A DNA stretch of 64,000 nucleotides from Paenibacillus taihuensis. Its GTDB lineage: Bacteria; Bacillota; Bacilli; Paenibacillales; Paenibacillaceae. The position numbers and the translations under genes are program-made. Of this stretch, positions 39,786-46,929 are shown piece by piece. Numbering within the stretch: the stretch's first letter is position 1; each line of letters begins with the position of its first letter. Location of the stretch: the NCBI RefSeq assembly GCF_003386535.1, contig NZ_QTTN01000001.1:290264-354263 (forward strand). The letters are read 5' to 3'. The notes under the pieces are model-generated. The model was not told where the DNA came from and searched no databases. It was given only the letters and a program-made list of their open reading frames with translations.

Positions 39786-40067
39786 CTACTGCATCAAGTC
39801 TAAGGCGTGATGTTCAATGCTAATATCGTCGATGTTGCCTTTCTCGTCCTTCAATACGTGGATAAGGTAAGGTACGCCTGCGTCAAAGGCTTTGAATATC
39901 AAGTGTTCTTTGTCGATCAGTATGACTTCATGACCGCATTCCCTCAGGCATTCCTCTACATCATTCAATGTCGGCTTTTGGCTCTCTTCCAGAAAGACAA
40001 TCCCTCGCAGCAAGGAAGTTTTGTCACGGTGAATCACTTTGAAATGGATGGACTTTTCTTTAATCAT
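39786..40067 (-). CDS. Hypothetical small protein
   Basis: 93 residues, no family recognised. It is acidic in the middle and may form a small alpha/beta fold (GIVFLEESQKPTLNDVEECL, EVILIDKEHLIFKAFDAG, IHVLKDEKGNIDDISIEH). No membrane segment. AAGGAG eleven bases upstream supports ATG 40067; the upstream GTG 40079 is too close to that site. Single gene, converging on the TolB-like gene. Confidence 0.6.
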   Translation of the reverse strand: MIKEKSIHFKVIHRDKTSLLRGIVFLEESQKPTLNDVEECLRECGHEVILIDKEHLIFKAFDAGVPYLIHVLKDEKGNIDDISIEHHALDLMQ

Positions 40068-40163
40068 GGCATTCTCCACTCCTTCACATATGTGTGCTCA
40101 TTACGTTTATCATAAACGGTCTTTATTCAAGCTGGTTATCGGGGGAATCACTGATCTTTCGAG

Positions 40164-40263
40164 CGGGGAAATCCCTATTGATCCCTCCTCATAAATCGCG
40201 ATTCTCCCTGCGGAATTTTCAGGGAATCGCTCGCCGTAGATTCCGTGTTTATCCCGATACAAT
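40164..40263 (+). promoter_or_regulatory. NreC-box-like site and -10 box of the doxX operon
   Basis: CGGGGAAATCCCTA at 40164-40177 fits the staphylococcal NreC box TAGGG-N4-CCCTA except for its first two bases. A second motif pair, CCCTG (40206-40210) and CAGGG (40220-40224), lies closer to the promoter, whose -10 TACAAT is at 40258-40263. Compare the palindrome at 43747-43766. Confidence 0.5.
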
Positions 40264-40317
40264 GCGAACGCGACAGAAGCTATGATGAAGACAGATCGAA
40301 CGAGGGAGCTGGTAGAA

Positions 40318-40857
40318 ATGGTAATGAATTGGCTAAGAAGCAACCGCTACGCTGCGATTATGTTGACGCTGGTACGACTGTATTTAGGCTGGGAGTGGAC
40401 GAAAGCCGGATGGCATAAACTCACGGGGGATAAGGCATTCGATGCGGCGGGATTTATCAAAGGCGCGATTGCCAAACCTGTGTTGGACAGTGGAACCCAT
40501 GAGCGCATTTATCCGAATTTTATCGGTTTTCTTCATGACTTTGCGCTTCCGAACGTGAAATTGTTCAATATCCTTGTCCCGTGGGGAGAGTTATTCGTTG
40601 GCATTGGGTTGCTGCTTGGCGCCTTAACGACTGCGGCCGTCTTCTTCGGCCTGCTGATGAATTTCATGTATATGTTTGCGGGCACCGTGTCGACGAACCC
40701 TTGGCTGGTGCTGCTCAGCTTCTTTATCATCGCTGCGGGCAGCAACGCGGGTAAGTTCGGATTGGATCATTATATCCTGCCGTTCCTGCACCATTGGTGG
40801 CTGAAAGGGAAAGAAGCCGCAAGGGGCCGGGGAAGAACGAGAGGAACCCATGTATAA
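40318..40857 (+). CDS. DoxX-family membrane protein
   Basis: 179 residues with four membrane segments. TLVRLYLGWEWTKAGWHKL near the N-terminus, VPWGELFVGIGLLLGALTTAA and the last segments with NPWLVLLSFFIIAAGSNAGKFGLDHYI are typical of DoxX proteins; similar ones occur with thiosulfate:quinone oxidoreductase or redox proteins. AGGGAG (40303-40308) selects ATG 40318 over ATG 40282, which lacks a ribosome site. Overlaps the hemerythrin-like gene by 8 nt, so the two are cotranscribed. Likely a respiratory or redox membrane component. Confidence 0.85.
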   Translation: MVMNWLRSNRYAAIMLTLVRLYLGWEWTKAGWHKLTGDKAFDAAGFIKGAIAKPVLDSGTHERIYPNFIGFLHDFALPNVKLFNILVPWGELFVGIGLLLGALTTAAVFFGLLMNFMYMFAGTVSTNPWLVLLSFFIIAAGSNAGKFGLDHYILPFLHHWWLKGKEAARGRGRTRGTHV

Positions 40858-41353
40858 CGGACTGTCAGATGTGCTCAAAATCTTGCAGGAAGAGCATTAC
40901 GGCTTGGCACAGGAGTTGCATCAGTACGATATGGCGCTTCAGTCAACAGTGGATGCTTGTGTTCCGGGGGATTTGGATTGGAAGCATTCCGTTCAAGAAT
41001 TACGTGTCCGGGCGATTGGATTCGCGGCGCAACTGAAGCACCATTTAAGGATCGAGGATGAGCAGCTGCTCCCGGAGCTTCAAGCCTGCTTATCGGAGGA
41101 AGATACCGTTCCGTCACTCCGATTCTCTTCCTTGCTCATGGAACAGTATTTCTGGTCGGGTCTCAGTTATTTGAATCTGTTCATTGATCAAACGGAGCAG
41201 CTAATTGAATTCAGGTCGACAAAGGACTTGAAACGGATGCTCTATTATCTACGCGAAGCGTTGATTCACTTATCGGAATATTTCAAGGTTGAGCAAGAAT
41301 ATGTTCTGCTTCAGGCGGTGCGAGTGCTTGAGGATGACCAGGCGGAAGGTTGA
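40850..41353 (+). CDS. Hemerythrin-like protein
   Basis: 167-residue all-helical protein. LQEEHYGLAQEL (His 16) and AQLKHHLRIEDEQLLPEL (His plus HxxxE and LLP) are the usual hemerythrin HHE-domain signs; IHLSEYFKVEQEYVLLQAV gives a further His and Glu. One of the standard HxxxE/HxxxxD pairs is not fully clear, so metal binding is probable but unproven. Hemerythrins bind O2 or sense NO and O2 through a di-iron centre, which fits the DoxX partner and the adjacent NreABC-like system. Confidence 0.65.
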   Translation: MYNGLSDVLKILQEEHYGLAQELHQYDMALQSTVDACVPGDLDWKHSVQELRVRAIGFAAQLKHHLRIEDEQLLPELQACLSEEDTVPSLRFSSLLMEQYFWSGLSYLNLFIDQTEQLIEFRSTKDLKRMLYYLREALIHLSEYFKVEQEYVLLQAVRVLEDDQAEG

Positions 41354-41368
41354 TCATGGAAACATTAT

Positions 41369-41412
41369 GGAAACAAGAAGAGCCCCCTATCAAGGGCGCT
41401 CTTCTTGTTTCC
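41369..41412. terminator. Bidirectional terminator between the hemerythrin-like and kinase genes
   Basis: Perfect 15-bp stem GGAAACAAGAAGAGC (41369-41383) / GCTCTTCTTGTTTCC (41398-41412) placed between convergent genes. Confidence 0.8.
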
Positions 41413-41422
41413 AGCTATACAG

Positions 41423-42535
41423 CTATTCTGCCTGCTTCGGCACAAGCAGAACGATGCTTGTGCCTTGCGTTGGTTCCGAATCAATGATGAGCTGGCCGCC
41501 AATGCTTCGCGCACGCTCCTCCATGCTGAACAGGCCGACGCCCTTCGCGCTCTGATCGCGTACGAATCCTTTGCCTGCATCCGTGATCCGCACCTCGATT
41601 CTGGCATCGGCATCGAGCAATTTCACATCGGCCTGGGATACATCCGCATATTTGCTAATATTGGTGAGCGCCTCTTGAATGACACGGTAGATCGTCGTTT
41701 CAATGGCGGCCGGAAGCCTTTTGCGCAAATTCGTCTCGAAATCGATCTGAATAGCAGTGTGCTGCGTGTAATTCTCGATGTAGGTACGAATAGCCGGAAC
41801 GATGCCCAAATCATCAAGAACGGATGGGCGCAGCTCCCATGCCAATGTGCGCACCTCTTCCATAATCGAGGATACGCTCCGTCGCAGCTTCTCAAGCTCG
41901 GGATTTCCTTTCCCGGCTATGATGCTGTCGAGCTGAATCAGCAGAGAAAACATGCTTTGTCCGATACCGTCATGCAGCTCGCGGGAAAACCGTTTTCTCT
42001 GTTCTTCCTGCATATGCATCACTTGCGTCATCATCTGCTTCAGCTCTTGTTCTACGCGTTTGAGCTCGGTTACTTCATTTCTGATGGCCAGATATTGGTA
42101 CGGTTCTCCATCTTCGTTCAGGAGAGGGACGATCGTTGTATTGACCCAATAGAATGAGCCGTCCTTTGCCCGGTTTCGGATGTCTCCGCGCCAAACTTTC
42201 CCGGCTGTAATCGTGTTCCATATATCGCGTATAAAGGTTTTGTCATGATGGCCGGAATTGATGATGCGATGATCCTTGCCCAGCAGCTCTTTACGGGCAT
42301 ATTGCGAGATTTCGCAAAATTTATCATTCACATAAAGAATCTTGCCCTTCGAATCCGTTATCGCTACGATCGATGATTCGTCGAGGGCGAATTTCAAATC
42401 AGTCAGTTGTTTCAGGGACAGCTTCAAATCGTCGCGAATCGGCACATCCACGAGCTGCACGTCGATCTGTTCCAACAAATGCTGGACGTTCTTGCCGATT
42501 ACTTCGGGAAATGCAGCGTCATGCTCCTTATTCAA
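41423..42535 (-). CDS. NreB-like PAS histidine kinase
   Basis: 370 residues. A PAS domain (about 45-155: DESSIVAITDSKGKILYVND and GSFYWVNTTIVPLLN) precedes the HisKA_3 dimerisation helix with phospho-acceptor His 188 (SRELHDGIGQSM) and a HATPase domain (QEALTNISKYA, DAGKGF, GLFSMEERA). No membrane segment. Layout and gene order match NreB, the cytoplasmic O2 sensor of staphylococci, but the four Fe-S cysteines of NreB are missing; only Cys 74 lies in the PAS domain. It therefore must sense something else, perhaps through another cofactor. Overlaps the regulator gene by 8 nt. Confidence 0.8.
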   Translation of the reverse strand: MNKEHDAAFPEVIGKNVQHLLEQIDVQLVDVPIRDDLKLSLKQLTDLKFALDESSIVAITDSKGKILYVNDKFCEISQYARKELLGKDHRIINSGHHDKTFIRDIWNTITAGKVWRGDIRNRAKDGSFYWVNTTIVPLLNEDGEPYQYLAIRNEVTELKRVEQELKQMMTQVMHMQEEQRKRFSRELHDGIGQSMFSLLIQLDSIIAGKGNPELEKLRRSVSSIMEEVRTLAWELRPSVLDDLGIVPAIRTYIENYTQHTAIQIDFETNLRKRLPAAIETTIYRVIQEALTNISKYADVSQADVKLLDADARIEVRITDAGKGFVRDQSAKGVGLFSMEERARSIGGQLIIDSEPTQGTSIVLLVPKQAE

Positions 42536-43181
42536 AGGTCAACAGTCCCTTCTTCATGGCGAACCTGACCAGCTCCGGTCTCGTTTTTAAGCCGAGCTTA
42601 TCCATCAGGTTGCTCTTATGGGATTCGACGGTCTTGACGCTGATGATCAGATGCTCGGCAATTTCTTTATTGGAGTAACCTTTTGCAATCCAGCCCAAAA
42701 TTTCTTTTTCGCGCTCGGATAAGGTATCGAAGATATCGGAGTGCTCTCCGCGTTTCAGCGTATCCAAGTATTCGCTCATTAGACGCTTCGTAGCCGTTGG
42801 ATAGAGGTAAGCGTTGCCTTGCGAGATCGTATGAATAGCAGAAACCAACTCTTCATGCGGGGCATTCTTCAGGATATATCCGGATGCGCCGGCGTGAATG
42901 GCCCGAAACAGATATTCATGGTCATCATGCATCGTTAAGACGAGAATCGAACAGTCGGGAAGGCGTTTCTTTAACTCGGCTGTCGCGGACAGACCGTCTT
43001 TGCCATGTGGCATGCTTAAATCCATGAGAACAACGTCCGGCTTCAGGCTGAGCGCTTTCTCAATTCCTTCGTCACCCTCGGCAGCTTCGCCGACGACTTC
43101 CATGGTGGTATGATCGTTTAACAAAGTCATTAGTCCGGAACGGACGATGGCGTGGTCGTCCACAATTAAAAGTTTTATCAT
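42528..43181 (-). CDS. NreC-like LuxR-family response regulator
   Basis: 217 residues. Receiver domain with phospho-acceptor Asp 54 (VVLMDLSMPHG) and a C-terminal LuxR-type helix-turn-helix (about 150-212: LSEREKEILGWIAKGYSNKE, then AEHLIISVKTVESHKSNLM). Similarity to Staphylococcus NreC is high throughout, for example GYILKNAPHEEL, VKTVESHK and KPELV-like RPELVRFAMKKGLL at the end. NreC activates nitrate respiration genes at a TAGGG-N4-CCCTA box. It forms an operon with the kinase and the GAF gene. Confidence 0.85.
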   Translation of the reverse strand: MIKLLIVDDHAIVRSGLMTLLNDHTTMEVVGEAAEGDEGIEKALSLKPDVVLMDLSMPHGKDGLSATAELKKRLPDCSILVLTMHDDHEYLFRAIHAGASGYILKNAPHEELVSAIHTISQGNAYLYPTATKRLMSEYLDTLKRGEHSDIFDTLSEREKEILGWIAKGYSNKEIAEHLIISVKTVESHKSNLMDKLGLKTRPELVRFAMKKGLLTFE

Positions 43182-43212
43182 GTTGCCCCTCCTTTGGAGT
43201 TGCTTATTTACC

Positions 43213-43671
43213 TCATCTATTATATAGGAGCTGCTGAAGATGAGGTATTAAATGTTCCGCTGCATGCTTGACCAGATGCAAATGGTTGTCTTCATACAGA
43301 CGTTCAGAGCGGTTCCCGACCAGCAGTACGCCGCGAATTTCATCTTGGATGGTGAGCGGAACTCCGATGGCAGCCTGCAATTGCTCCACGAGCATTATGG
43401 AATAGTCTGGCCGCAATCGTTCCCGTTCTGATGCCGGCATTCTTGCGTCTACGATGACAGGTCTTCCAAGCTTGATGACGAGACCTGATAATCCGCGCCC
43501 CGGCCTTATCACCAGCTCCGCATATCTTTCATTCGAATTCCCCGAAGCCGCCAACCAGCGAATCCGGCGATGGTACTGCTCTTCCATGGCGAATCCCGCC
43601 CAATCGCTGTCCGTTGACGTACGTATCTGATCCAGTTGAGACTGGATTTCTTTCTTCCAGGGAGCACTCAT
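43213..43671 (-). CDS. NreA-like GAF-domain sensor
   Basis: 152 residues, one GAF domain. The segment IRWLAASGNSNERYAELVIR, RPGRGLSGLVIKLGRPVIV and the C-terminal VPLTIQDEIRGVLLVGNR match NreA, the nitrate-binding GAF protein that restrains NreB. Start ATG 43671 is supported by GAAGAGGTGAG just upstream. It is first in the operon, followed by the regulator after 31 bp and the kinase. Ligand could be nitrate or another small anion. Confidence 0.75.
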   Translation of the reverse strand: MSAPWKKEIQSQLDQIRTSTDSDWAGFAMEEQYHRRIRWLAASGNSNERYAELVIRPGRGLSGLVIKLGRPVIVDARMPASERERLRPDYSIMLVEQLQAAIGVPLTIQDEIRGVLLVGNRSERLYEDNHLHLVKHAAEHLIPHLQQLLYNR

Positions 43672-43719
43672 GCTTCTCACCTCTTCCCAGCTGGCCATAT
43701 ACCTATTACTTGTCATTCC

Positions 43720-43766
43720 ATTATAGCCATTCACTTTGCCGTTGTAATTCAGGGAATTCCCTGAAT
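43720..43766 (-). promoter_or_regulatory. Promoter and perfect 20-bp palindrome upstream of the NreA-like gene
   Basis: ATTCAGGGAATTCCCTGAAT (43747-43766) is a perfect palindrome whose core AGGG-AATT-CCCT equals the NreC box core. The -10 TATAAT is complementary to 43720-43725, so the palindrome centre lies near -43, a classical activator position; TTACAA is a possible -35 box. Autoregulation by the operon's own regulator is the simplest reading. Confidence 0.65.
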
Positions 43767-44025
43767 CCGCACAAGCAGCAAACAAATAGAAAAACGCAGC
43801 AATGTCCGTTGCGACAGAAACGTAGCATACTTGAATCAGAGTGGAGCGCCCGCAGAGAAAACACATAGCGGGCTATTCGATATGCAGCGGGGAGGCGGTA
43901 ACGAAACGTTGGCGTTACTTTGCAAGGGTTAAGGAGCTCGGAAGCAAGAGAGCAACTTGCAAAAACTTGCTTTGCAGGCAAAAGTTTATGCCACGCAAGA
44001 TCCATGTTGAAACGGAGGAATGTTA

Positions 44026-46929
44026 ATGAGCAATGATCGCAAAATACGCGTCCCCATGCTTGGCTTGCTGCTGTTCGGATGCGCGCTGCTATGCGCGATC
44101 CTGTTCGTGCCGAACCGTGCTTATGCAGCGGATTATACAACGCAGAACTGGCAGACGGTCGAGATTCAGCTGACCAGCACGAAGTCCTACACCGATCCAT
44201 TCCAGAACGTTGATGTCACGGCAACCTTCACTGGACCTGGCGGAACGACGATTACGCGTCCGGCGTTCTGGGACGGCGGCTCTGTCTGGAAGATCCGCTT
44301 CGCACCGACGAAGACCGGCACCTGGACGATGACGACGTCGGCGAACGATCCTACCGATACGGGCTTGAACGGCATCAGCAAGTCGATTCAAGTCAATGCG
44401 TACACGGGCAGTCTCGCGATCTATCAGAAAGGGTTCCTGAAAGTGAGCAGTAACGGCCGCTACTTGACCTACAACGACGGAACGCCGTTCTTCTATCTCG
44501 GCGATACGCACTGGATTCTCCCGCACGAGCGGTTCGCGACTTCCAACGCATCCGGAGTCGCTTCGCAGTTCAAGTATGTCGTCGATAAGCGCGTTAGCCA
44601 AGGGTTTACGGTGTTCCAATCGGAGCCGATTTGGCAGCCGCATGGCGGCGGTACACATTCGGGAGCGGACGAGGAAATGGTAGCTAACTTGAGTGACGGC
44701 TTCACGAGCGCGGATCTTGCCGGATTCGCCAATTTGGACCGCAAGTTCAAATACATCGCCGACCAAGGCCTCGTCCATGCGAACGCGCAAGTCACATGGG
44801 CGCAAGATCCCGCGAATTATTCCGTGTATTCGGATGCCTACATGACGCGCGTGGCGAAATATTGGGTCGCCCGGTATGGTTCGTATCCGCTGATCTATAC
44901 GATTGCGCAAGAAATCGACCAGAATATGTACGGCGCATATAACTCCACAACGATGAGCAAATGGTATGCGGTAGGTCAGAGCATCACGGACAATGACTCG
45001 TACAATCAGCCGATCATGCCGCACATGGAGAATACGAGCTCGACGGTGGCGACCAATTCGTCGTGGGCAAGCAAGCCGTACGATGACGTCTTTGCTGTCC
45101 AATGGCAGGGCGATCTGCAGGGAATGAGCACGGCAAAGAACTTTTACAATTACACCACGACCAAGCCTTCCGTCCTCTACGAAAGCGCGTACGATAACTT
45201 CTGGACAGATTCGCGCGGCGCACTCGGAGCAGGCTACAAGGCGTTCCAATACGGGATGTACGGCTACGGATACGGGGCGGCTGGCGTATGGAACGACGTC
45301 TACTCCAAATCCGGAGATCCCGATGACTTCGGTACGGGATACGACTTGCCTGCGCATTACTATTGGTGGTATGACGGAGCGAATCTGACGACAGGCAGCC
45401 AACTGACCTACTTCAAAAACTTCTATACATCGCTGGAGTGGTGGAAGCTGGTGCCTCGATTTGACGATGGGGCGTGGGGGTCTTTCAACGATACATCCAC
45501 GTCGCTGCTGTCGTCGGACGGCAACAACACCTACGTGACGTTCTTCTTCAACGGGAACACGAATACGGGGACAATTAAAGGCATGGACAACGGTTATTAC
45601 TATAACGCGCGGTGGTTCAATCCGAGAACAGGTGCGTACACGACGATAAGCGGGGCGGCTGCTTCGACGTCCGGGCAGTGGAATATACCGCCCAAGCCGG
45701 ACAGCAACGATTGGGTACTGCTGCTGCAAAAGACGACTACCGCGGTACCGCCGCAGACGAACTTGGCGCTGGGCAAAACCTACGCGAGCTCCTCTTCGTG
45801 GGACGCGACACAAACAGCGGATAAAGCATTCGACGGTCTGCTGTCCACGAATTGGCAAGCTTGCAACACCTGCTGGAACGGACAGACGCTGGAAGTGAAT
45901 TTCGGCGCGAGCACGACGTTCAATCGGGTCGTATTGTCCGAATACGATAACCGTACGACCGGCTACCGCATCGAGTATTGGAACGGATCGACGTGGCAAA
46001 CCGCGTACACGGGCACGAGCATCGGATCGCCGAAGACGATTACGTTTTCCGCGGTGACCGGCAGCAAGGCGCGGATTTATTTTACATCGGGTACGTCGAA
46101 CGCGCCGATCATCTACGAATTCGCCGTCTATTATGACGTCGTGAATCTAGCGCTCGGCAAATCCTATGCAAGCTCCTCTTCATGGGACGGGACACAAACG
46201 GCGGACAAAGCATTCGACGGCTTGGCGGCCACGGATTGGCAGGCTTGCGACGGATGCTGGTCAGGGCAGACGCTGGAAGTGAACTTCGCGGCAAACACGA
46301 CGTTCAATAAGGTTGTATTGTCCGAATACAACAACCGCACGACGGGCTACCGCATCGAATATTGGAACGGTTCGACATGGCAAACGGCGTATACCGGCAC
46401 AAGCATGGGACCGTCGAAGACGATTACATTCACCGCGGTGACCGGCAGCAAGGCGCGGATTTATTTCACCACGGGAACCGCAAACGCGCCGATCATTTAC
46501 GAATTCGAAGTGTATAACGATAGCGTAGCCGTGAATCCGAATCTGGCACTCGGCAAAACTTACGCGAGTTCCTCTTCGTGGGACGCGTCACAGACGGCGG
46601 ATAAAGCATTCGACGGATCTGCCGCCACGGACTGGCAAGCTTGCAGCGGCTGCTGGAGCGGACAGACGCTCGAAGTGAATTTCGGTGCGAACACGACGTT
46701 CAATAAAGTCGTGCTGACAGAGTACGATAGCCGCACGACGGGCTACCGGATCGAGTATTGGAACGGCTCGGCATGGCAAACGGCGTACACCGGCACTTCC
46801 ATCGGCGCGACTAACGTACCGAAGATGATCACATTTACCGCGGTGACGGGCAGTAAGGCTCGGATATATTTTACTTCGGGCACCAGTTACGCTCCGATTA
46901 TCTATGAATTTGAAGTCTATAATCAGTAA
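44026..46929 (+). CDS. Secreted DUF5060/DUF4038 (GH140-like) glycoside hydrolase with three C-terminal modules
   Basis: 967 residues. Signal peptide to about residue 35 (cut after AYA). An Ig-like DUF5060 domain (about 38-125: WQTVEIQLTSTKSYTDPF) precedes a TIM barrel of the DUF4038 type (about 140-480: GTPFFYLGDTHWILPHERF, AQEIDQNMYG, VLYESAYDNFW) and a C-terminal beta-domain. Known members include GH140 apiosidases of pectin side chains. Three F5/8-type (CBM32-like) modules follow. CGGAGG at 44013-44018 favours ATG 44026 over ATG 44020. An inverted repeat GTAACG/CGTTAC lies upstream at 43898-43918. Ends in a 38-bp palindrome. Confidence 0.8.
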   Translation: MSNDRKIRVPMLGLLLFGCALLCAILFVPNRAYAADYTTQNWQTVEIQLTSTKSYTDPFQNVDVTATFTGPGGTTITRPAFWDGGSVWKIRFAPTKTGTWTMTTSANDPTDTGLNGISKSIQVNAYTGSLAIYQKGFLKVSSNGRYLTYNDGTPFFYLGDTHWILPHERFATSNASGVASQFKYVVDKRVSQGFTVFQSEPIWQPHGGGTHSGADEEMVANLSDGFTSADLAGFANLDRKFKYIADQGLVHANAQVTWAQDPANYSVYSDAYMTRVAKYWVARYGSYPLIYTIAQEIDQNMYGAYNSTTMSKWYAVGQSITDNDSYNQPIMPHMENTSSTVATNSSWASKPYDDVFAVQWQGDLQGMSTAKNFYNYTTTKPSVLYESAYDNFWTDSRGALGAGYKAFQYGMYGYGYGAAGVWNDVYSKSGDPDDFGTGYDLPAHYYWWYDGANLTTGSQLTYFKNFYTSLEWWKLVPRFDDGAWGSFNDTSTSLLSSDGNNTYVTFFFNGNTNTGTIKGMDNGYYYNARWFNPRTGAYTTISGAAASTSGQWNIPPKPDSNDWVLLLQKTTTAVPPQTNLALGKTYASSSSWDATQTADKAFDGLLSTNWQACNTCWNGQTLEVNFGASTTFNRVVLSEYDNRTTGYRIEYWNGSTWQTAYTGTSIGSPKTITFSAVTGSKARIYFTSGTSNAPIIYEFAVYYDVVNLALGKSYASSSSWDGTQTADKAFDGLAATDWQACDGCWSGQTLEVNFAANTTFNKVVLSEYNNRTTGYRIEYWNGSTWQTAYTGTSMGPSKTITFTAVTGSKARIYFTTGTANAPIIYEFEVYNDSVAVNPNLALGKTYASSSSWDASQTADKAFDGSAATDWQACSGCWSGQTLEVNFGANTTFNKVVLTEYDSRTTGYRIEYWNGSAWQTAYTGTSIGATNVPKMITFTAVTGSKARIYFTSGTSYAPIIYEFEVYNQ
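45760..46929 (+). repeat. Three tandem F5/8C-like module repeats in the GH140-like gene
   Basis: The units begin NLALGKTYASSSSW (45760), NLALGKSYASSSSW (46144) and NLALGKTYASSSSW (46540). Periods are 384 and 396 bp. Each carries a CxxC-W motif (CNTCW, CDGCW, CSGCW) and TTGYRIEYWNGSTWQTAYTG (SAW in the third). High identity suggests recent duplication or gene conversion. The CxxC pair may form a disulfide. Confidence 0.85.

Follow-up and report, generated by a model that had tools for sequence, protein, structure and literature searches.

An NreABC-like system with a probable flavin sensor, and its likely link to doxX and fnr, in Paenibacillus taihuensis and relatives

What does an NreABC-like system sense when its kinase lacks the iron-sulfur cysteines, and what does it control when no nitrate reductase gene lies nearby? 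These questions arise from three minus-strand genes in a 64,000-nucleotide stretch of the Paenibacillus taihuensis genome (6.79 Mb in 85 contigs), which lie in the order GAF protein, response regulator and kinase downstream of a palindromic box. The window, in what follows, is this whole stretch. We consider it likely, from sequence comparisons, that the trio is a redox-flavin variant of NreABC that activates itself, doxX with a hemerythrin-like gene and, in many relatives, fnr. The genes and promoter elements of the trio are as follows.

43213..43671, minus strand: gene for an NreA-like GAF protein, ATG at 43671, ribosome-binding site GAGGTGAGAAGC, assigned by family and PDB matches
42528..43181, minus strand: gene for an NreC-like response regulator (Response_reg and GerE/LuxR), assigned by domains
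41423..42535, minus strand: gene for a PAS-HisKA_3-HATPase kinase, TTG start, predicted flavin adenine dinucleotide (FAD)-type PAS at residues ~56-158
43747..43766, no strand assigned: regulator box of the operon, a perfect 20-bp palindrome, ATTCAGGGAATTCCCTGAAT, centred at about -43.5
43720..43725, minus strand: predicted -10 of the kinase operon, TATAAT, 41 nucleotides (nt) from the box start

The sensor domain and its partners

Our comparisons draw on two sets of loci, the window with 33 relatives chosen by their match to the GAF protein (34 loci, the first set) and 80 loci from named genomes, the best 80 from a larger number of kinase matches (the named set). They draw also on a kinase search of 394 genomes of the family, in which the best five candidates per genome were scored at E<=1e-80. 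A first-pass annotation of this DNA, made from the letters and their open reading frames, had read the trio as NreABC-like, and its domains and database matches agree. NreA is the best PDB match of the GAF protein (4iuh, E 6.5e-19) and also its best NCBIfam match, at 103 bits and under the curated cut-off of 175, and the window regulator shares 53% identity, across 217 aa, with the regulator encoded next to an iron-sulfur-type NreB in one relative, L064. The trio holds together across the named set, where the regulator accompanies the kinase in 80 of 80 loci and the GAF gene in 73.

That the kinase lacks the four iron-sulfur cysteines was also annotated, and an alignment of 32 kinases bears this out. 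Cys74 is the sole cysteine of the window kinase, and the CxxC...CxxC motif, whose cysteines define canonical NreB, is absent from it, from all 31 kinases considered when L064 is set apart (the window included) and from all 80 named kinases. The L064 kinase, from genome G122, is the only one of the 32 with the motif, and narG lies ~3 kb from its GAF gene. G122 carries a flavin-type kinase as well, on a different contig from the iron-sulfur-type one, so the two kinds of kinase coexist.

The nearest structural matches of the kinase suggest what its PAS domain holds instead. In a phmmer ranking of PDB entries MmoS comes first (whole-chain E 5.1e-52), followed by NifL and Aer, and 56 of 103 residues of the PAS are identical in the PAS-A domain of MmoS. 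MmoS and Aer (PMC9668731) and NifL (PMC3466315) are FAD redox sensors; the FAD pocket of Aer includes T18, H53, N85 and R115, with W70 stacking on the adenine, and that of MmoS T103, H132, N164 and R195 (PMC9668731). The window-kinase equivalents of the five Aer residues, placed from the PDB-search alignments, are T60, H89, W106, N121 and R152. All five are unchanged in 31 of 31 kinases (the window and 30 relatives, with the iron-sulfur-type L064 excluded) and in 81 of 81 when the window is joined to the named set, in which the phospho-His residues of the kinase are likewise invariant. The window PAS thus carries the flavin-pocket residues of the redox-FAD type represented by MmoS, NifL and Aer, and FAD is probably its cofactor in place of an iron-sulfur cluster, in line with the suggestion in the first-pass annotation of another PAS cofactor.

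The kinase was detected in 182 of the 394 family genomes and in 12 of 19 genera, with one match per genome; among named matches the nearest comes from Paenibacillus lycopersici, at 87% identity (the window genome's own records were possibly excluded). The GAF query retrieves 31 of the 394 genomes at E<=1e-20 and, among the 22 genus members, 8 at E<=1e-10; the kinase is the better tracer of the system. In two genomes, G013 and G305, the window query picks out a GAF protein that is not on the contig of the kinase, and the kinase locus has a GAF gene of its own. The annotation had raised the possibility of a second NreABC system elsewhere in the window genome; as a partial check, the genome yields a single NreA-like match (E<=1e-10) and a single kinase match (E<=1e-80), so no second system is seen at those limits.

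Box placement at the operon, fnr and doxX promoters

A palindrome near -43 of the operon had been annotated, and it stands: the centre of 43747-43766 lies ~43.5 nt upstream of the start predicted from TATAAT at 43725-43720. The genome scan proposed for the box showed no excess of the AGGGN4CCCT core, with 61 sites in the window genome against 64 for the reversed control, so the core is not usable by itself. The exact TCAGGGN4CCCTGA palindrome also shows little excess in 31 system-bearing genomes (17 sites against 14 for its reversed control), and 13 of those 17 sites are at the system's own promoter. With at most one mismatch a further pattern, AGGGNAATTNCCCT, gave 11 sites and its reversed control 6; it was discarded because its spacing differs from that of the palindrome.

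Upstream of the GAF gene at 33 loci (the window included, L064 omitted), the best AGGGN4CCCT match is 8/8 in 15, 7/8 in 11, 6/8 in 6 and 5/8 in 1, where shuffling leads one to expect 0.23, 3.8, 18.6 and 10.3. In the named set a box of at least 14 bits precedes the GAF gene in 65 of 71 upstream regions long enough to scan (of 73), and control windows within the kinase genes contain such a box in 0 of 80. The distance to the -10 is strikingly uniform, exactly 41 nt from the box start in 36 of 40 promoters preselected for the box and in 61 of 63 GAF promoters with the box on the gene strand and a readable -10. It is therefore the placement of the box, rather than the number of boxes, that is beyond chance. 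The boxes resemble an NreC-type palindromic site in that they recur upstream of candidate targets, at a conserved position, as RGGG-N4-CCCY sequences, and they are putative sites of the regulator. They fall into two subtypes, GAF-side and fnr/doxX-side, which differ in their outer bases.

The first-pass annotation looked to DoxX and the hemerythrin-like protein for the output of the system; in relatives the commonest neighbour, and a likely target beyond doxX, is fnr. An Fnr-like gene is present in 62 of the 80 kinase-picked loci (L189 has only a weak match), and an upstream box of at least 14 bits was found in 57 of the 62 kinase loci scanned. For comparison, 30 genomes were chosen in which no kinase was detected; 19 of them had an fnr match, and the box precedes 2 of their 22 fnr genes. 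One of these two is in G044, whose assembly is listed as 91% complete, and the other in G057, which is in 180 contigs with doxX at a contig edge, so a kinase may have been missed in each. The fnr box tracks the presence of the kinase, and where it reaches 14 bits or more the -10 lies at 41 nt in 47 of 56 fnr promoters (a separate scan covered 61 fnr promoters). A C-terminal cysteine cluster ends 30 of 31 Fnr-like proteins inspected, a sample apart from the Fnr-like proteins of the 80 kinase loci; the remaining one, in L076, is encoded away from the system, and the window genome's own Fnr ends in such a cluster as well. A C-terminal iron-sulfur cluster characterizes the Bacillus-type Fnr (PMC8139620).

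In the window itself the candidate targets beyond the operon are found to the other side of the kinase gene, where doxX and the hemerythrin-like gene, both on the plus strand, converge with it.

40282..40857, plus strand: doxX, DoxX family membrane protein; the true start is perhaps at 40318
40850..41353, plus strand: hemerythrin-like gene, four-helix protein with incomplete canonical histidines
40240..40259, plus strand: promoter-proximal doxX box, ATTCCGTGTTTATCCCGATA, 16.1 bits, 41-nt spacing to the -10
40281..40286, plus strand: predicted doxX -10, TATGAT, its spacing counted from box 40240-40259
40165..40176, no strand assigned: distal box, GGGGAAATCCCT, centre ~24 bp from that of box 40137-40156
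40137..40156, minus strand: box for the divergent small gene, GATCAGTGATTCCCCCGATA on the minus strand, 27.0 bits, 42 nt to TATGAT at 40114-40109
39786..40067, minus strand: small conserved gene, divergent from doxX, with its own box

The possible later start of doxX is suggested by L045, where the in-frame ATG upstream runs into a stop codon. The GGGG-AAAT-CCCT annotated upstream of doxX is present, at 40165-40176, and proves to be a distal site; the promoter-proximal box is 40240-40259, the only one with 41-nt spacing to a doxX -10. These boxes were ranked with a second model trained on 28 fnr-side boxes (training range 14.7-30.2 bits), to which the doxX-side boxes did not contribute; it places 40137-40156 first in the window, followed by the operon palindrome (18.0 bits), 40240-40259 and a next site at 12.0. 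Fourteen doxX promoters were examined, and 13 of them, all but that of L065, have the 41-nt layout. The 14 comprise the window copy, both copies in L044 and L045, the second copy of the window genome and eight divergent copies; the sample does not extend to copies placed co-directionally after the kinase or to additional ones (e.g. L117, L168, L193). The distal box is centred upstream of the box of the small gene, and at the corresponding distal place fnr promoters carry an extra palindrome scoring at least 7/8 in 28 of 55 cases, against ~0.8 in shuffles. The small gene has no family assignment; it is kept in P. glycinis (L045, L153) and present in L156 and L166.

The second doxX of the window genome (G000 contig 73) also shows the 41-nt spacing; downstream of it and in its orientation come a formate/nitrite transporter gene (225 bits) and then one for a lactate dehydrogenase, the whole set occupying L151:2486-4972 on the minus strand. 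DoxX-family genes of one cluster recur across relatives: counting the window, 19 of the first set's 34 loci have one, whether divergent, convergent or co-directional, and DoxX occurs in 13 of the 80 kinase-picked loci. The annotated link of the system to doxX and the hemerythrin-like gene is upheld, for doxX by this recurrence.

Hemerythrin-like genes occur in 24 of the 80 kinase-picked loci. The window protein itself scores 17.0 bits for PF01814, below the Pfam cut-off of 25.3, which the orthologues in L044 (25.8 bits) and L045 (27.4 bits) narrowly pass. AlphaFold2 confidently models it as a bundle of four helices (mean pLDDT 89.2). Of the canonical histidines, the alignment keeps those of helices 1 and 2, whereas those of helices 3 and 4 are replaced; the protein thus falls short of the Hemerythrin family both in score and in canonical iron ligands, and iron binding by it is doubtful.

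Nitrate reductase genes, mechanism and alternatives

No nitrate reductase gene had been annotated in the window. For the genome as a whole this holds for narG, which was found neither there nor in any of the 22 genus genomes searched, and it does not extend to all nitrate reductases, as the genome has two nasC clusters. NasC is the best match of two of its four molybdopterin reductases, one exceeding the cut-off of 1100 at 1190 bits and the other falling below it at 941, and both clusters carry NarK-like genes and, by eye, nitrite-reductase-like genes. A box scan of these clusters gave nothing at 8 bits or more with the GAF-type model and only 8.9 and 10.6 bits with the fnr-type model, values that we discount because chance hits at 10 bits or more run at ~24 per Mb. 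The family-wide counts are kinase in 182 of 394 genomes, narG in 157 and both in 54. By genus, kinase against narG is 17 to 0 of 22 genomes in genus 1, 3 to 27 of 40 in genus 3 and 7 to 58 of 100 in genus 9. The exception is genus 5, with the kinase in 73, narG in 46 and both in 45 of 75. Outside genus 5, kinase and narG mostly do not go together.

With no narG, and nas clusters without a convincing box, canonical NreABC control of narGHJI/nir is not seen here; because this regulon and the iron-sulfur cysteines of NreB both fail, we file the system as a variant of NreABC and not as a member. With NreABC of Staphylococcus carnosus and S. aureus it shares the GAF protein, a cytoplasmic PAS-HisKA_3 kinase, a NarL/LuxR regulator, palindromic sites and clustered genes. 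It differs in its FAD-type PAS without the four cysteines, in its gene order and in its likely targets, which are its own operon, doxX and, in relatives, fnr. With MmoS, NifL and Aer it shares PAS sequence and flavin-pocket residues; their output modules and regulons are different, whereas here the PAS is joined to an NreBC-type kinase core with an NreA-like partner. Our searches of the PMC literature did not find a flavin-type NreABC variant.

We suggest that the kinase PAS, probably holding FAD, reads the redox state of the cytoplasm or the respiratory chain, and that the kinase is probably also restrained or released by the NreA-like GAF protein in response to a small, nitrate-like ligand. 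The phosphorylated regulator would bind the RGGG-N4-CCCY-type inverted repeats and related boxes near -43.5 and activate transcription as a class II activator adjoining the -35. Its probable direct targets in this strain are its own operon, the small divergent gene, and doxX together with the gene for the hemerythrin-like protein; the second doxX, with its formate/nitrite transporter and lactate dehydrogenase, is perhaps a further one. In many relatives fnr would be an added target, and the system would there sit above Fnr. A two-component system above an Fnr with a C-terminal iron-sulfur cluster is known from the ResDE-fnr cascade of B. subtilis (PMC8139620), which employs another kinase and regulator; the box at about -43.5 of fnr described here is found in many relatives and is absent in the window genome. 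Since resDE also exists in Paenibacillus (PMC4774088), ResDE and the flavin NreABC could act side by side.

Several observations weigh against this interpretation. The scores of the GAF and fnr boxes are partly circular, because many of the fnr-side training boxes come from loci that were then scored and at least 6 of the 80 named loci come from genomes also used to train the GAF box model; the 41-nt spacing, the doxX-side boxes and the control without the kinase are less affected. The GAF gene went undetected in 7 of 80 kinase loci. In the GAF alignment the tryptophan of NreA's IKW is kept in every row, and the tyrosine of GYPI (DYSI in the window) is variable among relatives. A literature search found no paper that names the nitrate-binding residues of NreA; because this tyrosine, taken as one of its pocket residues, varies, nitrate is a plausible but uncertain GAF ligand. 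DoxX was detected in 301 of 394 family genomes (E<=1e-30) and is so common in the family that its presence alone means little, and the box of the second doxX reaches only 11.1 bits, a level to be read against the chance rate given above. A Foldseek search with the model of the hemerythrin-like protein returned nothing at E<=0.001. Among nine fnr genes distant from the system in kinase-bearing genomes, the window genome included and a further Fnr-like copy in L149 left aside, four have a box of at least 14 bits (L142, L144, L145 and L146, 15.5-16.7); L150 (13.2) and L143 (12.8) come close, and L148 (8.5), L147 (7.4) and L141, the window genome's own (-3.0), do not. The own fnr, which thus has no box upstream, instead shows TGTGA-N6-TCACA repeats by eye, and the fnr branch therefore seems absent in this strain.

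Two alternatives, both unlikely to about the same degree, deserve more than passing attention. DoxX homologues have a role in sulfur metabolism. The system might be a sensor of sulfide or reactive sulfur like NreBC of B. licheniformis, with DoxX serving thiol or sulfur oxidation and not anaerobic respiration. That system has a PAS in a clade apart from iron-sulfur and haem PAS domains, responds to sulfide, acts at sites like those of S. carnosus NreC and adjoins sqr-pdo (PMC9918477), and the doxX of L062, L063 and L075 has a nearby gene of a single cluster, whose L062 member passes the YpdA cut-off. By PMC9918477, however, the B. licheniformis system differs from that of S. carnosus in being without NreA, whereas an NreA-like GAF gene is the rule in the named set; the commonest neighbour here is fnr, a NasC-like set occurs in some genomes, and the kinase PAS is closest to redox-FAD sensors.

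The boxes might instead belong to some other regulator, for example an unlinked redox regulator, with the trio adjoining them by operon history. The regulator is assigned to its boxes by sequence comparison, and the difference in outer bases between the two subtypes would fit this second alternative. The concentration of exact palindromes at the system's own promoter argues against it, as do the tracking of the kinase by the fnr box (57 of 62 against 2 of 22) and the binding of GC-rich palindromes by NreC (PMC8139620).

It is most improbable that the locus is a canonical nitrate-respiration NreABC that merely lost its cysteines and is decaying, as the absence of narG from this genome and the 22 genus genomes might suggest: the spread of the kinase over 12 genera, its invariant FAD-pocket and phospho-His residues and the co-occurrence of both kinds of kinase in G122 all speak against it. 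A light sensor with a LOV-like flavin PAS is scarcely credible, since LOV proteins, though matched in family and PDB searches, rank below MmoS, NifL and Aer, the histidine of redox-FAD PAS domains (GKDHR) stands at the aligned place, and no LOV-type motif NCRFLQ is seen in the kinase alignment.

We thus prefer a redox-flavin NreABC, and an extended form of it seems to us evenly balanced between right and wrong. In this form a widespread flavin NreABC would be a top-level co-sensor of redox state and nitrate in Paenibacillus and relatives, driving fnr, doxX and itself from one promoter architecture. The lineage of the window would have lost the fnr branch and moved its output to doxX paralogues, the hemerythrin-like protein and the formate/nitrite transporter-lactate dehydrogenase operon. 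If the redox-flavin reading is right, the NreABC scheme can exchange an O2-labile iron-sulfur sensor for a redox flavin while keeping its NreA-like partner. A testable explanation would emerge for the control of fnr and fermentation genes in many species of Paenibacillus and Cohnella, genera in which narG was not found among them, and DoxX would gain a defined regulatory context in these bacteria.

Neighbouring genes

A NasC-like molybdopterin reductase is among the neighbours of the system in L051, L052, L054 and L076 of the first set; the L076 protein scores 863 bits for NasC, against the cut-off of 1100. More broadly, a NasC-like reductase with a membrane protein lies near the system or its GAF gene in L051, L052, L054, L076, L197, L199, L209 and L210, and several of these sets also include a Rieske protein and what looks by eye like a 4Fe-4S protein. 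Such a set may represent a membrane-linked nitrate reductase. L076 also encodes a NarK-family transporter fused to a C-terminal PAS (L076:435-1970, minus strand), of a cluster found as well in L051 and L064; in a family scan of the L076 copy this PAS resembles those of NifL and DibA.

On the other side of the operon promoter, at 44020-46929 on the plus strand, the window encodes a secreted-looking protein of 969 aa, whose C-terminal part contains three similar repeats (NLALGK..ASSSSWD type).

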